In this document: positions 1,262-10,100 of the stretch, piece by piece
How positions within the stretch are numbered: the stretch's first letter is position 1
Layout of the letters: each line of letters begins with the position of its first letter
Virus record (IMG/VR): IMGVR_UViG_3300027749_000409
Span: 1-28,174 of that record
Source: a virus
Length of the DNA stretch: 28,174 nt
Direction: 5' to 3' (one strand)
Position numbers and translations under genes: made by a program
The notes under the pieces: model-generated
The model's input: only the letters and a program-made list of their open reading frames with translations
Told to the model about the DNA's origin: nothing
Databases searched by the model: none

Positions 1262-2039
1262 GGGCACGCCAAGTCTTTGTGTTGTAGTGTATGGCTCCCC
1301 ATTGGGCCACAGTTTGTATTCGTAGATTAGGATATTCCCACACTAGCTCCAGGGTCCAATCCGGTGTTTGGGTTGGTATTATATGATGTTTCATGTGGGT
1401 TATTGTAGGACCAAGACCCACAGGCAAGGTAACCAAATCTGTGCCTGTTATGACTGCAGCCATGGCATATACCAAATCAGTTGAAGGCTCCGCGTCGGGC
1501 ATTAAGAGACAGCGTTGATAGTCAGACCAGTTTTCAAATATGCTTCTGACTAGATCAAAAAAGTCTTGTGCTGTTTTACTTAGACGCCAATAGGTAATGG
1601 CATTGTAAACATCTGGCAGATGGTTGCGATCAAATAGCTGTCTGTAAAATCTAGATCGACCGGGCCTATCATAAATGTCTCTACAGCCTTGACTGATCAC
1701 TACATCTCGTCGTTCAAACAAGGTCCACCAATGATCAATAGGACTGGCCACAATCATGTCAGCTTCTAGCTTGATGGTTTGTCTAAATGGACTAGCCGCA
1801 AACATCTGCCAGTCGTTGCATTGTTTGTTTTCTGTTGCGCTCTGATCACCATGTGGCAACGGAATCACATGATCAAATACTGGATCACTTGAACGTCGTG
1901 TTGTAATGGCAGCAATTTGTGCATCTGGATGGAACTCACGGATACTACGGGCCAGCTGAACAGCACAGGCCAGGTAGTCTGTGGTTGCATTGTCAATGGC
2001 TGGTATCAGATAGCCACGTTCAGCAAGCACTGGCAACAA
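1254..2039 (-). CDS. Glycosyltransferase-like protein (GT8-like), second of a tandem pair, 261 aa
   Basis: Probable glycosyltransferase with a GT-A fold. The N-terminus (YLIPAIDNATTDYLACAVQL) resembles the nucleotide-binding strand and helix of GT8-type enzymes. KLEADMIV at 90-97 carries an acidic metal-binding motif (EAD) at the end of a hydrophobic strand. The C-terminal region has THMKHH near 214-219 and AIHYNTKTW near 249-257, positions where GT8 enzymes supply a metal-ligand His. The central segment FFDLVRSIFENWSDYQR aligns with FDTMQMIRENWTHYRS of the next upstream gene product, so the two are paralogues. No ATG is available: TAG closes the frame three codons upstream, leaving TTG at 2037-2039 or 2034-2036. 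A good AGGAG lies just before them. The gene overlaps its upstream neighbour by 20 bp. Confidence 0.65.
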   Translation of the reverse strand: MLPVLAERGYLIPAIDNATTDYLACAVQLARSIREFHPDAQIAAITTRRSSDPVFDHVIPLPHGDQSATENKQCNDWQMFAASPFRQTIKLEADMIVASPIDHWWTLFERRDVVISQGCRDIYDRPGRSRFYRQLFDRNHLPDVYNAITYWRLSKTAQDFFDLVRSIFENWSDYQRCLLMPDAEPSTDLVYAMAAVITGTDLVTLPVGLGPTITHMKHHIIPTQTPDWTLELVWEYPNLRIQTVAQWGAIHYNTKTWRAHG

Positions 2040-2823
2040 TGTCTCCTAGATAGCGTTTGCCCATGGCATGAAAGTCTTGATTTAATGTGATCCACTTTAG
2101 CTGACCTGACCCAGTTCTATAATCTACACGATAGTGATCGACGGCCAATTGTGTTAGTTGTGTTTCTGGAACCACTGTGGCCAGACTCCAAGGAATACAG
2201 GGCCACGCCAAAACTTGTCCATTCACGATCAGTTGAGCAATGGTCAATGCAAAATCATTCCTATAGGTGGCACTGGATACGCCATACAAGCTTCTGTAAT
2301 GGGTCCAATTTTCTCTTATCATTTGCATAGTATCAAATATCAATTCAGCATGATGACTGCGATTGAATCGCATCACAGTAGCCCACGTCATGGGCATGTG
2401 ATATCGTCCAAAACAGTTTTCCTGTTCAAATGGTTTGCCCCCGGCAACATCATATGCATGATCATGTGCCAGGAAATCTATATTGGTGTCAAATAGCATG
2501 CTCAATTGATTGCTTGCTACTACATAGTCAGCATCCAACAACAAGGTCTGATCCCACGGACTCAAAGCATAGGCTGTCATGCGGTCATTATTGTACCAGG
2601 TCACACTGTCTTTGAAGTCGGCAAAGTATCTAGAATTATTTCCTTGTTTGTCAGCATGTATAACCTGATCAAATTGGTATGTGGCAGGCAAATTGACTTG
2701 ATCAGTAATCACACAAACTGGAAGACCCAAATGACGGTGTATGTTTTTGGTACTCCAAGCCGCCAAGGCCACATAATCAATCAGTTCGTTTGCATAGGCA
2801 AATATTACAACTCCTTGAGTCAT
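2020..2823 (-). CDS. Glycosyltransferase-like protein (GT8-like), first of a tandem pair, 267 aa
   Basis: Probable glycosyltransferase. The N-terminus GVVIFAYANELIDYVALA matches the nucleotide-binding strand and helix of GT-A enzymes. LGLPVCVITDQ near 32-42 is a second strand. QTLLLDADYVVAS at 92-104 contains a textbook DAD metal-binding motif after a hydrophobic strand. Near the C-terminus FHAMGKRYLGDI (251-262) offers the His and Lys expected for GT8-like enzymes. The ATG overlaps the stop of the upstream 104-residue gene as ATGA, so translation is probably coupled. It is paralogous to the following gene: both share ENW..Y...(17-20 residues)..D...A.A after the metal motif. Substrate is unknown. 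Family level assignment is fairly secure; activity is inferred. Confidence 0.68.
   Translation of the reverse strand: MTQGVVIFAYANELIDYVALAAWSTKNIHRHLGLPVCVITDQVNLPATYQFDQVIHADKQGNNSRYFADFKDSVTWYNNDRMTAYALSPWDQTLLLDADYVVASNQLSMLFDTNIDFLAHDHAYDVAGGKPFEQENCFGRYHMPMTWATVMRFNRSHHAELIFDTMQMIRENWTHYRSLYGVSSATYRNDFALTIAQLIVNGQVLAWPCIPWSLATVVPETQLTQLAVDHYRVDYRTGSGQLKWITLNQDFHAMGKRYLGDIVASAC
2043..2047 (-). promoter_or_regulatory. Shine-Dalgarno sequence for a TTG-initiated gene
   Basis: On the minus strand AGGAG is followed by ACA and then TTG TTG. Spacing is 3 bases to the first TTG and 6 to the second, so the second (2034-2036) has the more usual spacing. The motif lies inside the end of the upstream glycosyltransferase gene and supports a non-ATG start for the downstream one. 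Confidence 0.6.
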
Positions 2824-3134
2824 CTCAGCGTGTTTAGTTCGTCGTGTTCAATCAACCAGGCTGTCATTTGCTCTTGCCAGCGTTGTTGTGCCATGGCCAG
2901 TAGTTCTCGATAATCAACTCTGACAGGTGTATCGTACAAGTCAAGAAGAACCAGGCCTTGTTGACCTGTTTCCACGGATGCTGTCAAGGTATTGATCAGT
3001 TCAGGACCAGCACTCCACATTCCACCGTTGTAAGCAAAGGTCAGTTTGGCTTGGTATTTTTCTTTAAGTAGACGGCGAGCCTGGGCATGTTCAAATCTGG
3101 CACGGCCATGTTGTACTAATTGATTGGTATCCAT
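2820..3134 (-). CDS. Small conserved T4-like phage protein, 104 aa, function unknown
   Basis: Not assigned to a function. The protein is helical and charged at both ends, with a central AKLTFAYNGGMWSAGPELIN segment (residues 29-48), then VLLDLYDTPVRVDYRELL and an amphipathic C-terminal helix WQEQMTAWLIEHDEL. I recall very similar small proteins next to fibre genes in cyanophages, which makes an accessory role in tail-fibre assembly conceivable, but this is context only. It has an ATG start. No convincing Shine-Dalgarno sequence is present; a TATAAT lies six bases upstream. Its stop overlaps the next gene as ATGA. Confidence 0.78.
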   Translation of the reverse strand: MDTNQLVQHGRARFEHAQARRLLKEKYQAKLTFAYNGGMWSAGPELINTLTASVETGQQGLVLLDLYDTPVRVDYRELLAMAQQRWQEQMTAWLIEHDELNTLR

Positions 3135-3208: not shown

Positions 3209-4177
3209 TTAGGGTGAAGAAAATACCTGGGCAAACACGCTTGGAGTGCCCCAAGTATTGGTTAGATATGTGGTTTCTGGTGGAAAGTAGCTAACAATCG
3301 TACAAGGTGCTGTACCCGGTGTAAAAAAACTTGGGGGGGTGCCGCCTGAAATATTGGTGGTTTGTCCATATCCACTCACAGATGGTTGATACCAGGTAGT
3401 TGTGAATCTAATTACATTGGCAGATAGATTGTATGCCTGCACTTGGATATATGAACCGATATATGCTCCACCATCGTACTGTAAAAATAGTTCTTGCTGG
3501 GTGGCCTCATTGGTACCAGTCAATTGTGCATTACCTATGGTGGTGGCCACATTGACCGGACTGCCTGATCCAGCAATTTTATTAGTTCCCTGATATGTGT
3601 AACCAGCAATGACTTTACTTGTACTGGTTGAAGTAAACGAAAGCGTACCGCAGGCTGTAGCAAACGCATTCCAGTCTGGATCACGGTCAGTACCGGTGCT
3701 GGTTTTGCTAAACTGTATGCGGATTATGCCGCCGGCGTTAAAAAAATAATTTCTAACAGTTGCATTAGAAAATGTCACATCATTGGCAAAGATTATGGCC
3801 CAGTCTGCTTGTCCAGTGGTGAATGGGGTTCCTTTATAATTGACCCCAGTGATAATCGCAGGGCCTTGACTACCCACAGCATAGGCATTATACGGGTTAG
3901 TACCAATGGTACTGATGGCCGTGGTCAAATTGGCAATAGTGGCAATTGTTTGTCCAGCACTGGGACTGGTAACACTAGGATTTGATCCTGATTGGTGTAT
4001 GTAAGCATTGGTGATAGTGCCAGCCAGACTGGCCCATTGTGTGGCTGTGACAGTTCCGCCAATGCTGACCGCACCCACAGGTGTCTGTCCATAATAGTCA
4101 CTCCATATTGAATTTACACTGGTTGCAAAACCATTATAGTCTGACGCTTGTATTGTTCCACCGGAGCTGTATGTCAT
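3209..4177 (-). CDS. Tail fibre-like structural protein, 322 aa
   Basis: Likely a virion appendage protein. The N-terminus reads TYSSGGTIQASDYNGFATSV and then VSIGGTVTATQWASLAGTI, a pattern I recognise from fibre-like proteins of T4-like aquatic phages (IQA.DYN.....VN, then TVTATQW..L). The body is rich in Thr, Ser, Gly, Asn and aromatic residues, with few charges, as expected of a trimeric beta-structured fibre. Segments such as NPYNAYAVGSQGP and GGAYIGSYIQVQAYN suggest a globular beta tip. There is no transmembrane segment or signal peptide. The ATG directly follows GATAAAAA, with an 18-bp gap from the upstream fibre gene. No chaperone or variable-repeat element was seen nearby. Receptor unknown. 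Confidence 0.72.
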   Translation of the reverse strand: MTYSSGGTIQASDYNGFATSVNSIWSDYYGQTPVGAVSIGGTVTATQWASLAGTITNAYIHQSGSNPSVTSPSAGQTIATIANLTTAISTIGTNPYNAYAVGSQGPAIITGVNYKGTPFTTGQADWAIIFANDVTFSNATVRNYFFNAGGIIRIQFSKTSTGTDRDPDWNAFATACGTLSFTSTSTSKVIAGYTYQGTNKIAGSGSPVNVATTIGNAQLTGTNEATQQELFLQYDGGAYIGSYIQVQAYNLSANVIRFTTTWYQPSVSGYGQTTNISGGTPPSFFTPGTAPCTIVSYFPPETTYLTNTWGTPSVFAQVFSSP

Positions 4178-4195
4178 TTTTTATCAGTTTTAAAC

Positions 4196-5692
4196 TTATT
4201 TAATTGTTACAATAGCTTCAACTAGGCCTAGTCCTGTATCATGTTTGTCTACCAAGGCTCGCCCAATTGTGTTGAATGCCGTGGCTTCGCCTGCGGTCGC
4301 AGACCTGGCAATTCCTTCACCAGCTGATACCAATCGATCGCCTTTGTGTACAACACCAGTACATTGTACAGGAACCCGACCGGTCATTGCAACCGGGGGA
4401 TGAGTCAAATCTGATCCAGCACCACTGTTCATTAGGTATGCTGCTCGTGTGCTTATAACTCCAAACACTGTGTCACTTAATTCTTTTTTAGATAATGTAA
4501 TTTCTGCTGACCCGCCCAATTCGACCACAGTCCCGGCTTGGTATATATTATCTGCAGCAAATCGTTCTGCTACGTCAGCATATTGAGCCGAAGTTGCCTG
4601 AGCAAATATTGTATTGAAATATCCACCCGAACTGCCAATATTACCAATACCGTTTCCATTGGCGTTGATTATGTTGCCAATGCTCAGAGCCGTTGTGCTA
4701 AAAACTGCAACATTCGATACGCCGCCTATACCTACAGTGACATTGCCTCCCGAACTGACCACAGTCACATTACTTGTACCGCTGTTGATGTTGGCCACGC
4801 TGGTGATCACACCTGTCAGTAGTGCACCGTTACCCAGAATATAATTACCAGTAACATTGCCAATAGCACTGACAAGTCCACCTGTTAACACATTGCCGCC
4901 TGTGATATTGCCTGTGGCTGTGACTGAACCGACGGTACGTAGATTGCCGCTGGATACATTACCAGTGACTGTGATCAGGCCTGCGGTGTTTATATTGCCG
5001 CCTACAATGTTACCTGCCACGTTTACACCACTTGCACCTTGTCCCCAAAATGTAGGAGATGTGACTCCACCAATGCCGGTCACGTTGCTGGCCAATTGTA
5101 TACCGGAACTGATGTTGCCAAATCCAGGAATAGCCAACAATGGAGTCCAGGTTGCATCGCCACTCATAATGCCCACGACCACGCTGTCAACTACTAGTTC
5201 AATTACTTTGTGAGTTACTGTACCGGTTGTATCTGTTATCACATTGGCAAATGCGCCGGTTACACCAGTACCAGCTGTGAATTGTGGGCCAACTAATGTC
5301 CATGACGCTCCAGACCAGATGTTTACCTGTTGGTTTTGTGTGTCATACCAAAGATCTCCTTGGGTGTTATAAATGGTAGAACTAGGAGTAGTATTTCCCA
5401 CTGCCATTGCGCTGAGATATTTCCAGCCAGTTGTGGTATTGTTGGTGTTGACTTGTAGTCGTCCGGCACTGGGTGAATTATTCCACCAAAGTTGTCCAGT
5501 TATTGGTGCAGGTGGTGCTGTACTATTAGAAGAATTTTGTAATACCCGTACAAAATTGGTATTTAAAAATTGTCCGTACCCAGAATAATTTTTACCCACA
5601 AGCGTTAGTGCCGGGGCTGCGGTGGTATTAATAGTACCGTCAGCTATGGTAGCAAATACGGTTCCATCGGTTAGTGTTATTGTATATGACAT
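4196..5692 (-). CDS. Tail fibre protein with 17-residue beta-helix repeats and conserved C-terminal domain, 498 aa
   Basis: Structural fibre. The N-terminus (SYTITLTDGTVFATIADGTI, then LTLVGKNYSGYGQFLNTNFV) is a conserved phage fibre start, probably the virion-attachment part. It is followed by APITGQLWWNNSPSAGRL and a second W-rich copy, QGDLWYDTQNQQVNIWSGASW. Residues 223-290 are four 17-residue repeats built on a x-G-N-(I/V)-x-x-G core, which should form a beta-helical shaft. The C-terminal domain begins AQYADVAERFAADNIYQAGT (around 370) and contains VELGGSAEIT and TGRVPVQCTGVVHKGDRLVS. This module is common at the ends of cyanophage fibre-like proteins and may be a trimerisation or chaperone-like beta-domain. 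A late-promoter motif ends 44 bp before the ATG. Confidence 0.82.
   Translation of the reverse strand: MSYTITLTDGTVFATIADGTINTTAAPALTLVGKNYSGYGQFLNTNFVRVLQNSSNSTAPPAPITGQLWWNNSPSAGRLQVNTNNTTTGWKYLSAMAVGNTTPSSTIYNTQGDLWYDTQNQQVNIWSGASWTLVGPQFTAGTGVTGAFANVITDTTGTVTHKVIELVVDSVVVGIMSGDATWTPLLAIPGFGNISSGIQLASNVTGIGGVTSPTFWGQGASGVNVAGNIVGGNINTAGLITVTGNVSSGNLRTVGSVTATGNITGGNVLTGGLVSAIGNVTGNYILGNGALLTGVITSVANINSGTSNVTVVSSGGNVTVGIGGVSNVAVFSTTALSIGNIINANGNGIGNIGSSGGYFNTIFAQATSAQYADVAERFAADNIYQAGTVVELGGSAEITLSKKELSDTVFGVISTRAAYLMNSGAGSDLTHPPVAMTGRVPVQCTGVVHKGDRLVSAGEGIARSATAGEATAFNTIGRALVDKHDTGLGLVEAIVTIK
4823..5026 (-). repeat. Four tandem 51-bp coding repeats (17 aa, G-N core) in the fibre gene
   Basis: The protein repeats are VNVAGNIVGGNINTAGL, ITVTGNVSSGNLRTVGS, VTATGNITGGNVLTGGL and VSAIGNVTGNYILGNGA, each exactly 17 residues in register. 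Nucleotide identity is lower than protein similarity, so the repeats are old and kept for structure rather than recently amplified. Confidence 0.75.
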
Positions 5693-5736
5693 TGTTTAAT
5701 CGGTCCTATTATATTTGTTGCAATTTGATATACGCA

Positions 5737-5744
5737 TATTTATG
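5737..5744 (-). promoter_or_regulatory. T4-type late promoter motif (CATAAATA) before the 498-aa fibre gene
   Basis: The motif overlaps the TAA stop of the 201-residue gene and lies 44 bp upstream of the fibre ATG. T4 late promoters use TATAAATA at about -13 to -6, with the first base variable. Initiation here would give a leader of roughly 40 nt containing AGGA 11 bases before the ATG. Confidence 0.6.
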
Positions 5745-6345
5745 CGGCACTCAAGTTTGTCAAAGTCTGAATGCGCAAGGTATAATCAATTTGTATCTGT
5801 CGATTTAGACTTTTTTGTACCGGGTGGAAAATCACATGTGTTATCAACAACAACTGTGTGGCAGATCCGTTCCAACACTGTAACCCTAGTTCATCAAACA
5901 CATATTCACCATTGAAATTGGTGCTGTTGTCAAAGGCCTGTTGTCCGGCTGGTTCACCATAATCCAACAAGCAGGTCACTACTATGTCCGTGTACGGTTG
6001 TCCAGATGTGTGTATCACCGTCATGTAATTGTTGCCGGGATCCTGATTGGCAGCTGAATTATCATCTACCACCTTGGCATAAGTTTCGTTGTATAGGCTG
6101 GCACTGGTGCCAACGGTATTAGGTGGCAAATAGGTTATTACTCCAGTGGGATCAACTGCACTGCCGCCATTGCCAAAGGCCATCTGGTAGATCCAGCCCA
6201 CATTGCGGTCACTCAAAGTGTTGGCCATGCAAATACTGATATTTTCGTAATGAATTTGATTGGAGCCGTCAAAAAACACTTCTTTTGTTGATGGATCAAA
6301 AATTTTTAAAAATCCTTTTATTAGTAAATTACTGTTACTCAACAT
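5740..6345 (-). CDS. Phage structural protein (tail/fibre associated), 201 aa
   Basis: I recall proteins of this type in T4-like marine phages as small virion or fibre-attachment components; exact role unknown. The N-terminal motif GFLKIFDPSTKEVFFD (11-26) is followed by SNQIHYENISICMANTLSD. Then comes a glycine-rich turn (YQMAFGNGGSAVDP, about 53-66), and the end is HVIFHPVQKSLNRQIQIDYT. The start ATG has AGGA at 6352-6355, six bases away, lying inside the end of the homing-endonuclease gene, which it overlaps by 11 bp. The first 30 or so codons are markedly more AT-rich than the rest and resemble the endonuclease gene in composition. The 49-codon ORF upstream of the endonuclease encodes a second version of the 11-26 motif. 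Confidence 0.7.
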   Translation of the reverse strand: MLSNSNLLIKGFLKIFDPSTKEVFFDGSNQIHYENISICMANTLSDRNVGWIYQMAFGNGGSAVDPTGVITYLPPNTVGTSASLYNETYAKVVDDNSAANQDPGNNYMTVIHTSGQPYTDIVVTCLLDYGEPAGQQAFDNSTNFNGEYVFDELGLQCWNGSATQLLLITHVIFHPVQKSLNRQIQIDYTLRIQTLTNLSAA

Positions 6346-6982
6346 TTATTTTCCTTTTTCTTCCCCCACCGTTTCCGGTGCCGTATTTGATAGATCTCCA
6401 CCCACCTATGGAATAATAAATTTTATTAAATGGCAAATTATTTTCTCGACAAAATGCCCGTAATCCTTTGATTTTTACTACTTCGCCAGTGGGGTATTGA
6501 ATTTGCCATTCGAGCGCATTAGGATTTTTTCCTCCCGATGTTTGCAAACTGTGTAATTTTTTAGTACGGTCGGATACTGTTACTCCAGTTCGTTGCTCTG
6601 ACCATATTTTTTTTGTTTTTGCTGATGGAGCCCATCCTTTTTTACTGTCTGCCCAATTTTTCTTGTGCATTGCAGATCGAGGTGGCATTTTGCCACCGGG
6701 CGGAAACCCATCCAAACCTGTTTCTGGTATCAAATTGGCCCATTTATCACTATTAACAATATCAAAAAACTCACTAAAAAATGTTGCAAACTCAAAAATA
6801 TCAGACTCTTCTGTAAATAATGTATGCCACAATGTGGTGATGTTGTTACCGTGTTCGTTCATATGTCTCGACCAATAAAGCCCAGACCCCGAATACACTA
6901 CCGGATCAACTGATGTAGTTTTTCCAAAATACAGTTTACCTGTCTTGTTGTGTTGTTTAATATAAAGACTTGTTGGAATCAT
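6335..6982 (-). CDS. GIY-YIG-type free-standing homing endonuclease, 215 aa
   Basis: Probable mobile endonuclease. The N-terminal nuclease core shows SLYIKQHNKTGKLYFGKTT (5-23), where LYI and YFG stand for the GIY and YIG motifs. GSGLYWSRHMNEHG (32-45) follows, then FEFATFFSEFFDIVN and WANLIPETGLDGFPPGG (81-97). The middle is basic (KKNWADSKKGWAPSAKTKK), typical of DNA-contacting linkers. The C-terminus, EWQIQYPTGEVVKIKGLRAF and CRENNLPFNKIYYSIGG, looks like a NUMOD1-type helix-turn-helix. The gene is clearly more AT-rich than its neighbours, a sign of transfer. The ATG overlaps the stop of the 49-codon ORF as ATGA, and its end overlaps the 201-residue gene. No intron core is visible, so it is free-standing. 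Which DNA it cuts is not known. Confidence 0.78.
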   Translation of the reverse strand: MIPTSLYIKQHNKTGKLYFGKTTSVDPVVYSGSGLYWSRHMNEHGNNITTLWHTLFTEESDIFEFATFFSEFFDIVNSDKWANLIPETGLDGFPPGGKMPPRSAMHKKNWADSKKGWAPSAKTKKIWSEQRTGVTVSDRTKKLHSLQTSGGKNPNALEWQIQYPTGEVVKIKGLRAFCRENNLPFNKIYYSIGGWRSIKYGTGNGGGRKRKINVE

Positions 6983-7128
6983 GCTCGTTTTTCCACAAAT
7001 ATCTGTTTGGTCTGGGGATCTGAAATCCTGACATGTCCTTGCACTGAAATACTTCCAGTTTCGTTAGGACGGCGCTGAGGTTTTTGTTCAGCGTTGTTTG
7101 TTTTAGTTGTCTGCTTGTTATCAGTCAT
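6979..7128 (-). CDS. 49-aa ORF: probable N-terminal remnant or paralogue of the adjacent structural protein
   Basis: Short ORF read directly from the minus strand: ATG at 7128, TGA at 6979-6981. The first 25 residues are polar and low complexity (MTDNKQTTKTNN, then PQRRPNETG). Residues 31-46, GHVRISDPQTKQIFVE, align without gaps to residues 11-26 of the 201-residue protein, GFLKIFDPSTKEVFFD. Seven are identical (G, I, D, P, T, K, F) and five are conservative. The frame stops immediately after EKRA, where the 201-residue protein goes on into its IHYENIS segment. The stop overlaps the endonuclease ATG. I infer that the endonuclease gene interrupted an ancestral structural gene here, leaving this 5' fragment. 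An intact small gene is the alternative. Confidence 0.55.
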   Translation of the reverse strand: MTDNKQTTKTNNAEQKPQRRPNETGSISVQGHVRISDPQTKQIFVEKRA

Positions 7129-7132
7129 ATTT

Positions 7133-7140
7133 TATTTATC
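7133..7140 (-). promoter_or_regulatory. T4-type late promoter motif (GATAAATA) before the 49-aa ORF
   Basis: The motif lies in the 59-bp gap after the giant gene, ending only 4 bp before the ATG at 7128. Initiation at the usual distance would begin at or inside that ATG. The motif may therefore serve the endonuclease and the 201-residue gene, with the 49-codon frame translated only from read-through transcripts. Confidence 0.5.
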
Positions 7141-7187
7141 TTAGTTTTTATCCCCAAAAAAAACCTTGGTCGTTGTTGATTGTTGCA

Positions 7188-10100
7188 CTAGGAAGAAGGT
7201 ATTTCTATCCTTCGAACCAGAATGGTCACGTCAACACCGTCTGCAGGCGCCGAGTCCAGGGTCACTGACACCGGTGCCTGGGCAGTTACAGTATAATAGT
7301 CGTCGCTCAACAATATCCCGCCCACATAAACTTGTACCGCTCGGCTTAACGGTTGCCAATATTCAGTGTTTGTGATAGCTGTGTAATATGGAACATCCTT
7401 TAAGGCCATGTAATAACTGCCAGAATTAACTACCACAGCGCCTTGATAATAAGCAAGGCCCACTGTGAAGGTCAATCCTGTGGTGGTGCCTGCTGTGGTA
7501 TCAATTGACACATTGCCAGGAGTGACCAAGGTAAACTGTGTTGACCCATTGGTTGCACTGATCTGATAGGTTGTTGGATTTGTGTAATCAACAATGGTGC
7601 TGGTACCGCTGTTGGTGCCACTTACCACCACAGGATTACCCACTATCAACAACTTGCTTGATGCAGTACAACTACATGCAAACAACAGATTGGTTATGTT
7701 AACACCAGTTACAACTTGAGTGGTAGCCCAGGTCGTAGTTGACGTGCTGATTGTGATATTGGGTGCGTTAAATACTGTGGCAGTTCCATTGGCCAAGGTG
7801 CTGGTACTCACAATGTAATTTTGGTATGCTTCAGGAAACAACATGTTACGACTTATATTGTACACTATTGCAGCGGTTTCGTGTGCTGCCACAGCAGTAC
7901 CCACGGTGCCACGCAATAGTCCGCTGACTGTGTTTGCTACATAGTCTATTTCACGATACATGATACGTTCAGCGTTGATTGTTAGTTCTCCCCATTGATT
8001 TAATTCAAAGTTTGGAGCCGACAATACAGAAGCATTGTCTACAAAAATCTCGTCATCGTCTGCAGCCAAGGGTTGAGTTAGTTCGGTGGTTCCTGATTGA
8101 GTAATTGAGTAATTCAGTTGAATATTCCGCATGGTCTGGAATATACGGCTGTCTACAACAGGAATAGCTGGCGCAGTTTCAATGATCACTACTATGTCAC
8201 CGGCTGCTGGCGGCGTGTTGAATGTCACAGTTGGAGCAACATACGAGTAGTTTGTGCCAGCAATAATCACATTGTTTACACAGACCACAACGGTGGTTGC
8301 CCCTGTAGGTGCAGCAAATGCAACCTGGGCGCCATTTGCAGTGTAATTCGTGACTGGACGATTGTATATTCTGAAATCCATGGTATCAAATTCGCTGCCA
8401 GGAACCAACTCTTCCGGTGCATAACTGCTGAATACATCGATATAGCCACCGCCGTCCACATTGATATCTGTGGCACGCAATCCCAGGTACGGATCCACAT
8501 AGGCGCTTGAATATACGGCATCTAGAATGATTGGACTAAAAGTTGGAAATCCTTCGGGCCCATATGTGATATTGTCAAATGGATTGATATCAAAGTTGCC
8601 CACGTCAAAGCCGGGATTTTGATTGAAGGCTGGAGCAGTCACCATTACTCCAGGGTAGCTGGTGCCCGGTATCAGTAACGGTAAACTGAGCCCGGGCATG
8701 TTTGGTGTTGGCACATAGTAGCCCATGGTTCGATCAGCACCGTTTAGATTTTCTGCCAAAACCACGGTCCACATATTGGGATCAAACACTGTGGCATTGG
8801 TGTTTTCAGCAGCCTGCCACACAGTATTGTTCCAACGCACTCGATTGCCGGTCACATAAGATTCTCCTGGGATCCACTCAAATATAGTGGTCACATATTC
8901 ACAGCGATCAAACTTTAAGGTTACTGTAAAATCACGCACCAGTTGATTGCCCATGACTGGCACAACAGCATAGCCAGCTGGTAAGGCACCACCACCACCG
9001 ATCAAGGTCACATCAGGTGTGGTAATATATCCAATGCCTGTATTGGTAACAGTTATACCGGAAATTGTGCCTGTTAACAAATTAACTATAGCCGTGGCAC
9101 TTGCGCCAGTGCCACTCCAGGTAAGAGTGGCTGATCCATTCAACTGCGACCCCAAAGTAAACACAGGAGCATCTGTGCCCGTGGTTCCAGCCGCGGTCAC
9201 AGTGTACAAATTGTTCACACCTGTATTGATATGATAAATCTGTTGCCCCACACTGTAGGTTGTGGTTGCAATCCATGGCATGCCAATTATTACGTCAGGA
9301 GTTGATGTGTACCCGGTTCCACCTTGTAATACAGTAATTGAATTCACACTCAGCGTGTGATTGTTGAACCATTGTTGCCATGGTTGACGCCCCCACACAG
9401 GTGCGTTTGAGTCTGCATCGCTGACAAATGTTTCTCCCAAGCTGAGTGATTCAGTGTAGGGAGTCAGTACCGGGCTTACAAACTGTGGCACTTCAAGTTC
9501 AACATCCCAATATGCAGGCACATCAAAATCACTCAAATTGCCCGGGTAGGTATCCAATCCATCATAGATCAGATTGAATGCCAGGGTCTGTACATGGAAC
9601 GGTTTGACTTCTTGTAGGTAATCCTCTACAAAAGTTTGATTGTCTTTCTGGTACAACTGATACGGTTGTAACCCACGCAGTCTATGATCCACATCAATAA
9701 AACTGCTCAATGTTAACCAACTGGGTGCTGAAAATTCAGTATAGATAAATTTAAACATCAGGATCAGCAACTGATTGCGATAGATCAATAGATCATCGAT
9801 AAAAAGTTCTTGATTGATTGCTTGGATTATTTTTCTAGTTTCAATCACTGGTTCTTGATCAAAGTATTGTGCATCAAAAACTTCAGCATCAAATCCGTAC
9901 GGTCCTGCAGCATAATCCCATAAATCTTGATCAAACTGTATGGTACCATCTTGTAACCCTACTCGATCCCATCCAGTCACCGTTCGTAAATAAATTTCAA
10001 ATTTGCCTTGGCCGTTGTCAGTGACTCGTACACTGCTGCCAATTGGTGCTGTTGTCAGGCTCAATGTTTGTAACGCTGCAGTGTTTGTTACTTGCGCAAT

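Follow-up and report, generated by a model that had tools for sequence, protein, structure and literature searches.

The locus and its gene products

The window considered here, i.e., the whole stretch of DNA that was analysed, comprises 28,174 nucleotides of a virus record (IMG/VR IMGVR_UViG_3300027749_000409, positions 1 to 28,174), the relatives of which are jumbo phages. On its minus strand, a giant structural gene of 4574 aa (20912-7188) ends and is followed, in this order, by ORFs of 49, 215, 201 and 498 aa, the last of them at 5692-4196 (Table 1). The 49-aa ORF has the C-terminus GHVRISDPQTKQIFVEKRA and then stops; this stop overlaps the start of the endonuclease ORF in the four bases ATGA, and the structural ATG is placed within the final 11 nt of the endonuclease ORF and is preceded, at a distance of six bases, by AAGGA. 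At the sequence level, the endonuclease ORF hence begins in the upstream stop codon and ends across the new structural start codon and a ribosome-binding-like site. Both overlaps, already pointed out in the initial annotation of this DNA, are borne out by the ORFs (coordinates 6982 and 6979 for the ATGA overlap).

The succession of giant structural gene and short or structural gene is also present in Sinorhizobium phage Phosso and Agrobacterium phage Atu_ph07. The 498-aa protein encoded after the structural gene matches phrog_14394, a virion structural family, with its N-terminus, and its C-terminal part (YADVAERFAADN, GTVVELGG, VFGVIS) is conserved also in the relatives L297, L303 and L290.

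Table 1. Features of the split structural gene region in the window
Feature	Positions	Strand	Basis or remark
Short gene ("stub"), 49 aa	7128-6979	-	homologous to N-terminus of unsplit relatives
Duplicated segment, copy 1, GHVRISDPQTKQIFVE	6991..7038	-	
GIY-YIG homing endonuclease gene, free-standing, 215 aa	6982-6335	-	phrog_314 matches of relatives; predicted fold
Predicted GIY-YIG catalytic domain, residues 1-86	6725..6982	-	predicted fold; invariant residues
C-terminal half of endonuclease, putative DNA-binding tail	6338..6595	-	conservation; weak fold matches
AAGGA, Shine-Dalgarno-like, for structural gene, inside endonuclease tail	6352..6356	-	sequence 5' of start codon
Virion structural gene, 201 aa, phrog_11259	6345-5740	-	tail/baseplate-like predicted fold
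Replacement 5' end accompanying the endonuclease, 30 codons up to IHYENIS	6256..6345	-	
Duplicated segment, copy 2, GFLKIFDPSTKEVFFD; predicted first beta-hairpin of structural protein	6268..6315	-	
Recoded split point, GSNQ replacing K[KR]NA; proposed resistance change	6256..6267	-	

No Pfam match was obtained for the endonuclease, the 49-aa or the 201-aa protein; family assignments, thus, rest on relatives and on predicted fold. The 201-aa protein belongs to phrog_11259 (E 7e-69), which occurs in jumbo phages such as RaK2, 121Q and Atu_ph07. Its AF2 model (pLDDT 74) is most similar to the HFTV1 tail (Z 7.7), A511 gp105 (6.3), phiKZ gp139 (6.1) and the phi812 baseplate (5.8), and given these modest Z values, a role as tail or baseplate component is likely. 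In the predicted structure, the duplicated segment forms the first beta-hairpin of this protein. The ungapped match of its two copies, 7/16 identical, was exactly as initially annotated and is beyond chance, with a BLOSUM62 score of 50 that none of 2000 shuffles reached; the pairing recurs family-wide, a consensus query of the short protein matching structural N-termini at E = 5e-5 to 1e-7. The downstream protein is of full length and has its own copy of the N-terminal hairpin; the two genes are not non-overlapping pieces making one protein. A programmed frameshift fusing them was set aside, since the downstream gene is equipped with a start and a hairpin of its own. The AT-rich beginning of the structural gene, likewise noticed before, was recovered when GC was computed in 30-codon steps, giving 28% over 6318-6229, 54% over 6228-6139 and 46% in the three following steps.

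The relatives L002 and L020 match the phrog_314 homing endonuclease. In the AF2 model, the N-terminal domain (pLDDT ~90) superposes on the catalytic domain of I-TevI (1ln0) over 82/92 residues with a Z of 7.4, clearly above the lower-ranked matches, the Foldseek E being only 0.24, and the GIY-YIG domains of UvrC and Slx1 are listed, too; by its predicted structure, this domain is a GIY-YIG catalytic fold. Residues L6, K9, H11, Y18, H40 and N83 are invariant in one alignment (A2), with E87 just beyond the domain, and Y18, H40, N83, E87 and G32-S33-G34, which are putative catalytic residues, are invariant in 20 relatives. An Rfam search of 5600-7300 yielded no intron match, and the ORF overlaps its neighbours by ATGA and 11 nt, which places the endonuclease, as judged from sequence, outside any self-splicing intron or intein.

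The C-terminal half gives weak fold matches to the DNA-binding domains of I-HmuI and I-TevI (Z 3.8 and 3.6), and the Atu_ph07 homologue contains a NUMOD3 motif. The pattern W..P.G..GL..C..F..Y..G..K is invariant in the C-half of six endonucleases, including that of Atu_ph07. At least three catalytic subtypes are found at the site—the window type, a LEM-3-like GIY-YIG type with NUMOD3 (Atu_ph07) and a SegE-like type (L120, similarly L297 and L303)—and these differing subtypes have the C-terminal half in common, as would be expected if a conserved DNA-binding tail directed them all to a conserved part of the virion gene. When L120-type and L085-type enzymes served as queries, almost no further carriers at this site came up.

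Split, unsplit and scarred forms of the structural gene

Deeper relatives possess one unsplit gene, the N-terminus of which resembles the 49-aa ORF and continues into KRNAIHYEN, as exemplified by MQASKPNETGSVSVQGHIKIFDPSTKEVFVDKRNAIHYENFS of L164. On a tree rooted on jumbo-phage outgroups, the 78 unique unsplit sequences are located at the outgroup and at the deepest forks; split and unsplit forms interchange five times, four of these changes being forced by well-supported branches, and a single split clade is rejected. On this tree, the gene was split several times. In several lineages, the ancestral gene, as reconstructed from the sequences, was unsplit, and where it is split, a short gene upstream ends at the same codon. 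Specifically, the stubs of five split lineages end 13 residues past the start of a DP motif; that of Atu_ph07 alone extends 10 residues further.

Among isolates, Phosso has the unsplit gene, and Atu_ph07 has a 43-aa stub (MDNVKDDTTTKIQGHVLIRDPESGEVFVNKSLQ...), a GIY-YIG ORF joined to it by an ATGA overlap and a structural gene with another start; the C-half of this GIY-YIG ORF is shared with the window enzyme. A second pair is formed by L132, which is unsplit, and L129, which is split and holds an endonuclease remnant of 122 nt. Such scars are found repeatedly. MIPTTLYI is retained in L118, IKYGQRKSGKQQNA in L124-L128, and endonuclease start plus tail in L129/L130; in L118 and L124-L128, the endonuclease fragments lie between the pieces and the captured 5' end is still present. 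No recognised endonuclease remnant is contained in the split groups L161, L201 and L206. The wider scenario of the initial annotation, in which a gene is cut, a stub remains and the gene is kept whole by a foreign 5' end, is thus seen elsewhere, namely in the pairs Phosso/Atu_ph07 and L132/L129.

For the window lineage itself, the annotation had proposed that the present endonuclease made the 49-codon stub, and this was not supported. L004 is devoid of an endonuclease and encodes a 49-aa protein identical to that of the window (141/150 nt), ATGA-joined to an intact structural gene, the start of which (MIITPGLTKIEGF) differs from the window's. The same arrangement without endonuclease is present in ~70/80 relatives of the 201-aa protein; in endonuclease-less relatives, the short gene ends with ...PNETGSISVEGFVKIFDPKTKEVFVEKRA and a stop that overlaps the structural ATG by ATGA, and their structural starts are mostly of a related MI(Q/I/L)(T/P) type with no scar. 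Homologues without endonuclease include unsplit deeper relatives with N-termini matching the 49-aa ORF up to KRNAIHYEN, and split L004-type relatives that do have a stand-alone short gene, with a structural start other than the AT-rich one of the window; of the two observations that, taken together, would have spoken against the annotation, only the first was made. Most likely, the window endonuclease entered an already split, endonuclease-less allele like that of L004. With a dN/dS of ~0.39 and pN<pS in 39/40 independent pairs, the short gene is, by its sequence variation, a conserved gene under purifying selection and not debris.

One endonuclease-less relative, L290 (NZVE01000006.1), comes from a Rhodobacteraceae MAG; short gene, structural gene and the tail gene downstream of them are all present on its contig, which is, therefore, probably jumbo-phage DNA binned with a bacterium.

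The replacement 5' end and the recoded split point

Compared to L004, the window is 92% identical at the nucleotide level in the short gene, 53% in the structural 5' end and 85% in the structural body; compared to the endonuclease-bearing L002, the respective values are 67%, 81% and 75%. The 5' end tracks the endonuclease and not the remainder of the gene, in agreement with the earlier proposal of an element sitting at the structural gene start together with a replacement 5' end. Two types of 5' end are shared between carriers: type A (...STKEVFFDGSNQIHYEN) in the window, L001-L003 and L005-L007, and type B (...DVTDKxNPQxLVDKDNSIHYEN) in L020, L085 and L109. The DNA of the structural body places the window as sister of L004 and rejects a single clade of the type-A carriers (p-AU 9e-7) as well as of the type-B carriers (6e-4).

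The identity of L005 and L007 is mostly 70-92% in the flank upstream, but 94-100% in a tract that begins ~100 nt within the endonuclease and stops ~165 nt into the structural gene; a likewise sharp tract of 94-100% identity, which also begins within the endonuclease and reaches ~115 nt into the structural gene, is shared by L085 and L109. Such tracts between less similar flanks are the signature of transfer with co-conversion. As read from these alignments, endonuclease and structural 5' end were transferred as one tract between different backgrounds, and the site is occupied in some alleles and empty in others, flanking DNA having been transferred as well; most of the compared sequences are metagenome contigs, in which chimeric assembly is possible, while those of Atu_ph07 and Phosso are complete genomes of isolates. 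The coupling of endonuclease C-half and 5' end is not strict, the C-half of the window being nearest to that of L020 and its 5' end nearest to that of L002. No donor of the type-A 5' end turned up, the starts of L161, L168 and L175 being 49-57% similar at most.

The residue before IHYEN is Ala in 152/155 unique endonuclease-less sequences and in 0/9 endonuclease-bearing ones, where GSNQ, KDNS, KDNQ or KHNQ replaces K[KR]NA. The Fisher value of this contrast (1e-12) ignores kinship and overstates the case, since the carriers represent few (~4-6) independent 5' ends. Later-fetched sequences agreed with the prior idea: two carriers obtained by a search with the endonuclease C-half (L297 and L303) both have KDNQ and, hence, no Ala, and the empty L290, obtained by a genome-contig search, has Ala. 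Exceptions are the unsplit L132, with Ser at the split point, and the scar loci L124-L128, with Ala. The pattern suggests that the change of the Ala codon is a self-protection of endonuclease-bearing alleles; on the simplest reading, the replacement 5' end would carry an altered target.

L109 (~3998-4430) has a site endonuclease with an in-frame deletion of ~73 codons between its two domains, a probable decay stage that retains the captured 5' end.

Origin of the split gene and known parallels

We consider it probable that a free-standing GIY-YIG endonuclease of a large phage homes into the K(K/R)NAIHYEN codons near the start of a virion structural gene and, when it moves, takes along a replacement for the 5' end of this gene. 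The enzyme would cut the uninterrupted codon stretch, and repair from an endonuclease-bearing allele would copy the endonuclease gene along with the 5' end; the altered 5' end would resist cutting and keep the structural gene at full length. The cut-off original 5' end may then persist as a small gene with an N-terminal PNETG tail and a beta-hairpin, and later loss of the endonuclease would leave a stable two-gene pair. To the phage, the stub may be of use in that it retains the PNETG tail, which is absent from replaced 5' ends. For the window lineage, this would mean an ancestral split, loss of the endonuclease in most descendants and, most likely, entry of the present endonuclease into such a pair with a second replacement of the 5' end.

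Alternatively, an ordinary partial tandem duplication may have made the gene pair, with endonucleases settling in the junction and unsplit genes arising via direct-repeat recombination. The two copies are indeed true direct repeats, most split relatives are without endonuclease, and the split of the window lineage is older than its present endonuclease; however, unsplit genes occupy the outgroup and deep branches, the split sisters of unsplit genes have an endonuclease (Atu_ph07) or a scar (L129), and in separate lineages, the stub ends at one and the same codon, which is unexpected for random duplications. We therefore regard this origin as unlikely. Similarly little can be said for the history initially proposed, in which the present endonuclease itself split the gene of the window lineage and made the 49-codon stub; L004-like relatives would then have lost it and re-acquired a different 5' end. 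Such a course is seen elsewhere, and the scars show that losses occur; the ATGA-joined pair in ~70/80 relatives, mostly with the related structural start and no scar, as well as the scattering of carriers among endonuclease-less relatives on the body tree, argue against it. With carriers so scattered, fewer steps are needed if endonucleases repeatedly entered a split allele, and we deem the initially proposed course quite improbable.

Least credible is fast evolution of the 5' end under relaxed constraint beside the insertion, with no co-transfer. This would account for a 5' end that is AT-rich like the endonuclease and diverged at the protein level, but the same 5' end is found in different backgrounds (L002/L005/L006; L085/L109) at up to 100% identity, and the shared 5' ends have no synonymous change while the bodies differ; barring chimeric contigs, the shared 5' ends contradict this explanation, and we give it very little weight.

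Returning to homing with a replacement 5' end, a broader proposition appears reasonably probable to us: large phages may host a recurrent class of homing endonucleases whose mobile unit includes the recoded, cleavage-resistant 5' end of a virion gene. Gain and loss by varied catalytic subtypes with one DNA-binding tail would split the gene at one codon, swap N-termini and create a selected small gene, i.e., gene birth by homing.

T4 Seg enzymes are free-standing, and by predicted structure, the window enzyme has the same catalytic fold as these and I-TevI; unlike them, it lacks a Pfam GIY-YIG match and is inserted along with the 5' end of a host gene. Splitting of phage genes by free-standing homing endonucleases is known from Aeh1 nrdA/mobE, T4 gene 60/mobA and Aeromonas phage 25 gene 43, and in T4-type phages, both pieces are needed where mobE, mobA or seg genes have split a gene (PMC2988022). 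As in splits of the Aeh1 nrdA type, a free-standing phage endonuclease is situated at a conserved gene, there are two products where relatives have one, and the stop and start codons overlap, suggesting translational coupling. In contrast to that type, in which the pieces assemble into one enzyme, the downstream gene is of full length here owing to the replacement 5' end brought in with the endonuclease, the upstream piece, a copy made redundant, persists as a small gene, and recurrent entries, losses and scars are visible.

Mobile ORFs of fungal mitochondria replace gene C-termini (Allomyces atp6; Glomus atp6, atp9, cox2 and nad3; PMC3630166). There, too, the endonuclease ORF carries a diverged host-gene end that replaces the native one, the latter being left over beyond the insert; however, the 3' end is concerned, in mitochondria and mostly with LAGLIDADG enzymes (GIY-YIG in atp9), whereas the present case concerns the 5' end, in a phage, with the left-over piece under purifying selection. 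In Tremella fuciformis, mitochondrial introns come with a duplicated gene N-terminus and bring about N-terminal exchange (PMC7315562); the mobile element introduces the N-terminus as a foreign copy, and gain followed by loss exchanges a gene part, as at the present site. Unlike there, no intron was found here (Rfam), and the self-resistance signature and the multi-lineage scars are features of the present case. Our literature search, outside which most subscription journals lay, returned no phage element with a replacement gene start. At the level of sequence organisation, insertion with a replacement gene end has mitochondrial analogues.

If correct, this would show, in phages, a selfish endonuclease that invades the coding part of a virion gene without intron or intein by means of a replacement start, with all stages of the cycle—unsplit, occupied, scarred and empty-split—visible in living relatives. 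Endonuclease homing would thereby be linked to virion proteins swapping their N-termini and to the emergence of a small gene, and the idea of self-resistance by recoding becomes directly testable in a single codon region, with the isolates Atu_ph07 and Phosso.

Endonucleases were also observed in other positions. L106 and L107 (3324-4645) have, directly downstream of an unsplit structural gene and hence at the opposite gene end, an endonuclease that shares the GIY-YIG-like N-domain but has a different tail. ORFs resembling endonucleases lie just downstream of an apparent ribonucleotide reductase small subunit gene in other viruses (L264 and L266, ~1871-3070); their start is of the GIY-YIG type, and they match the L120-type enzyme over a short stretch.
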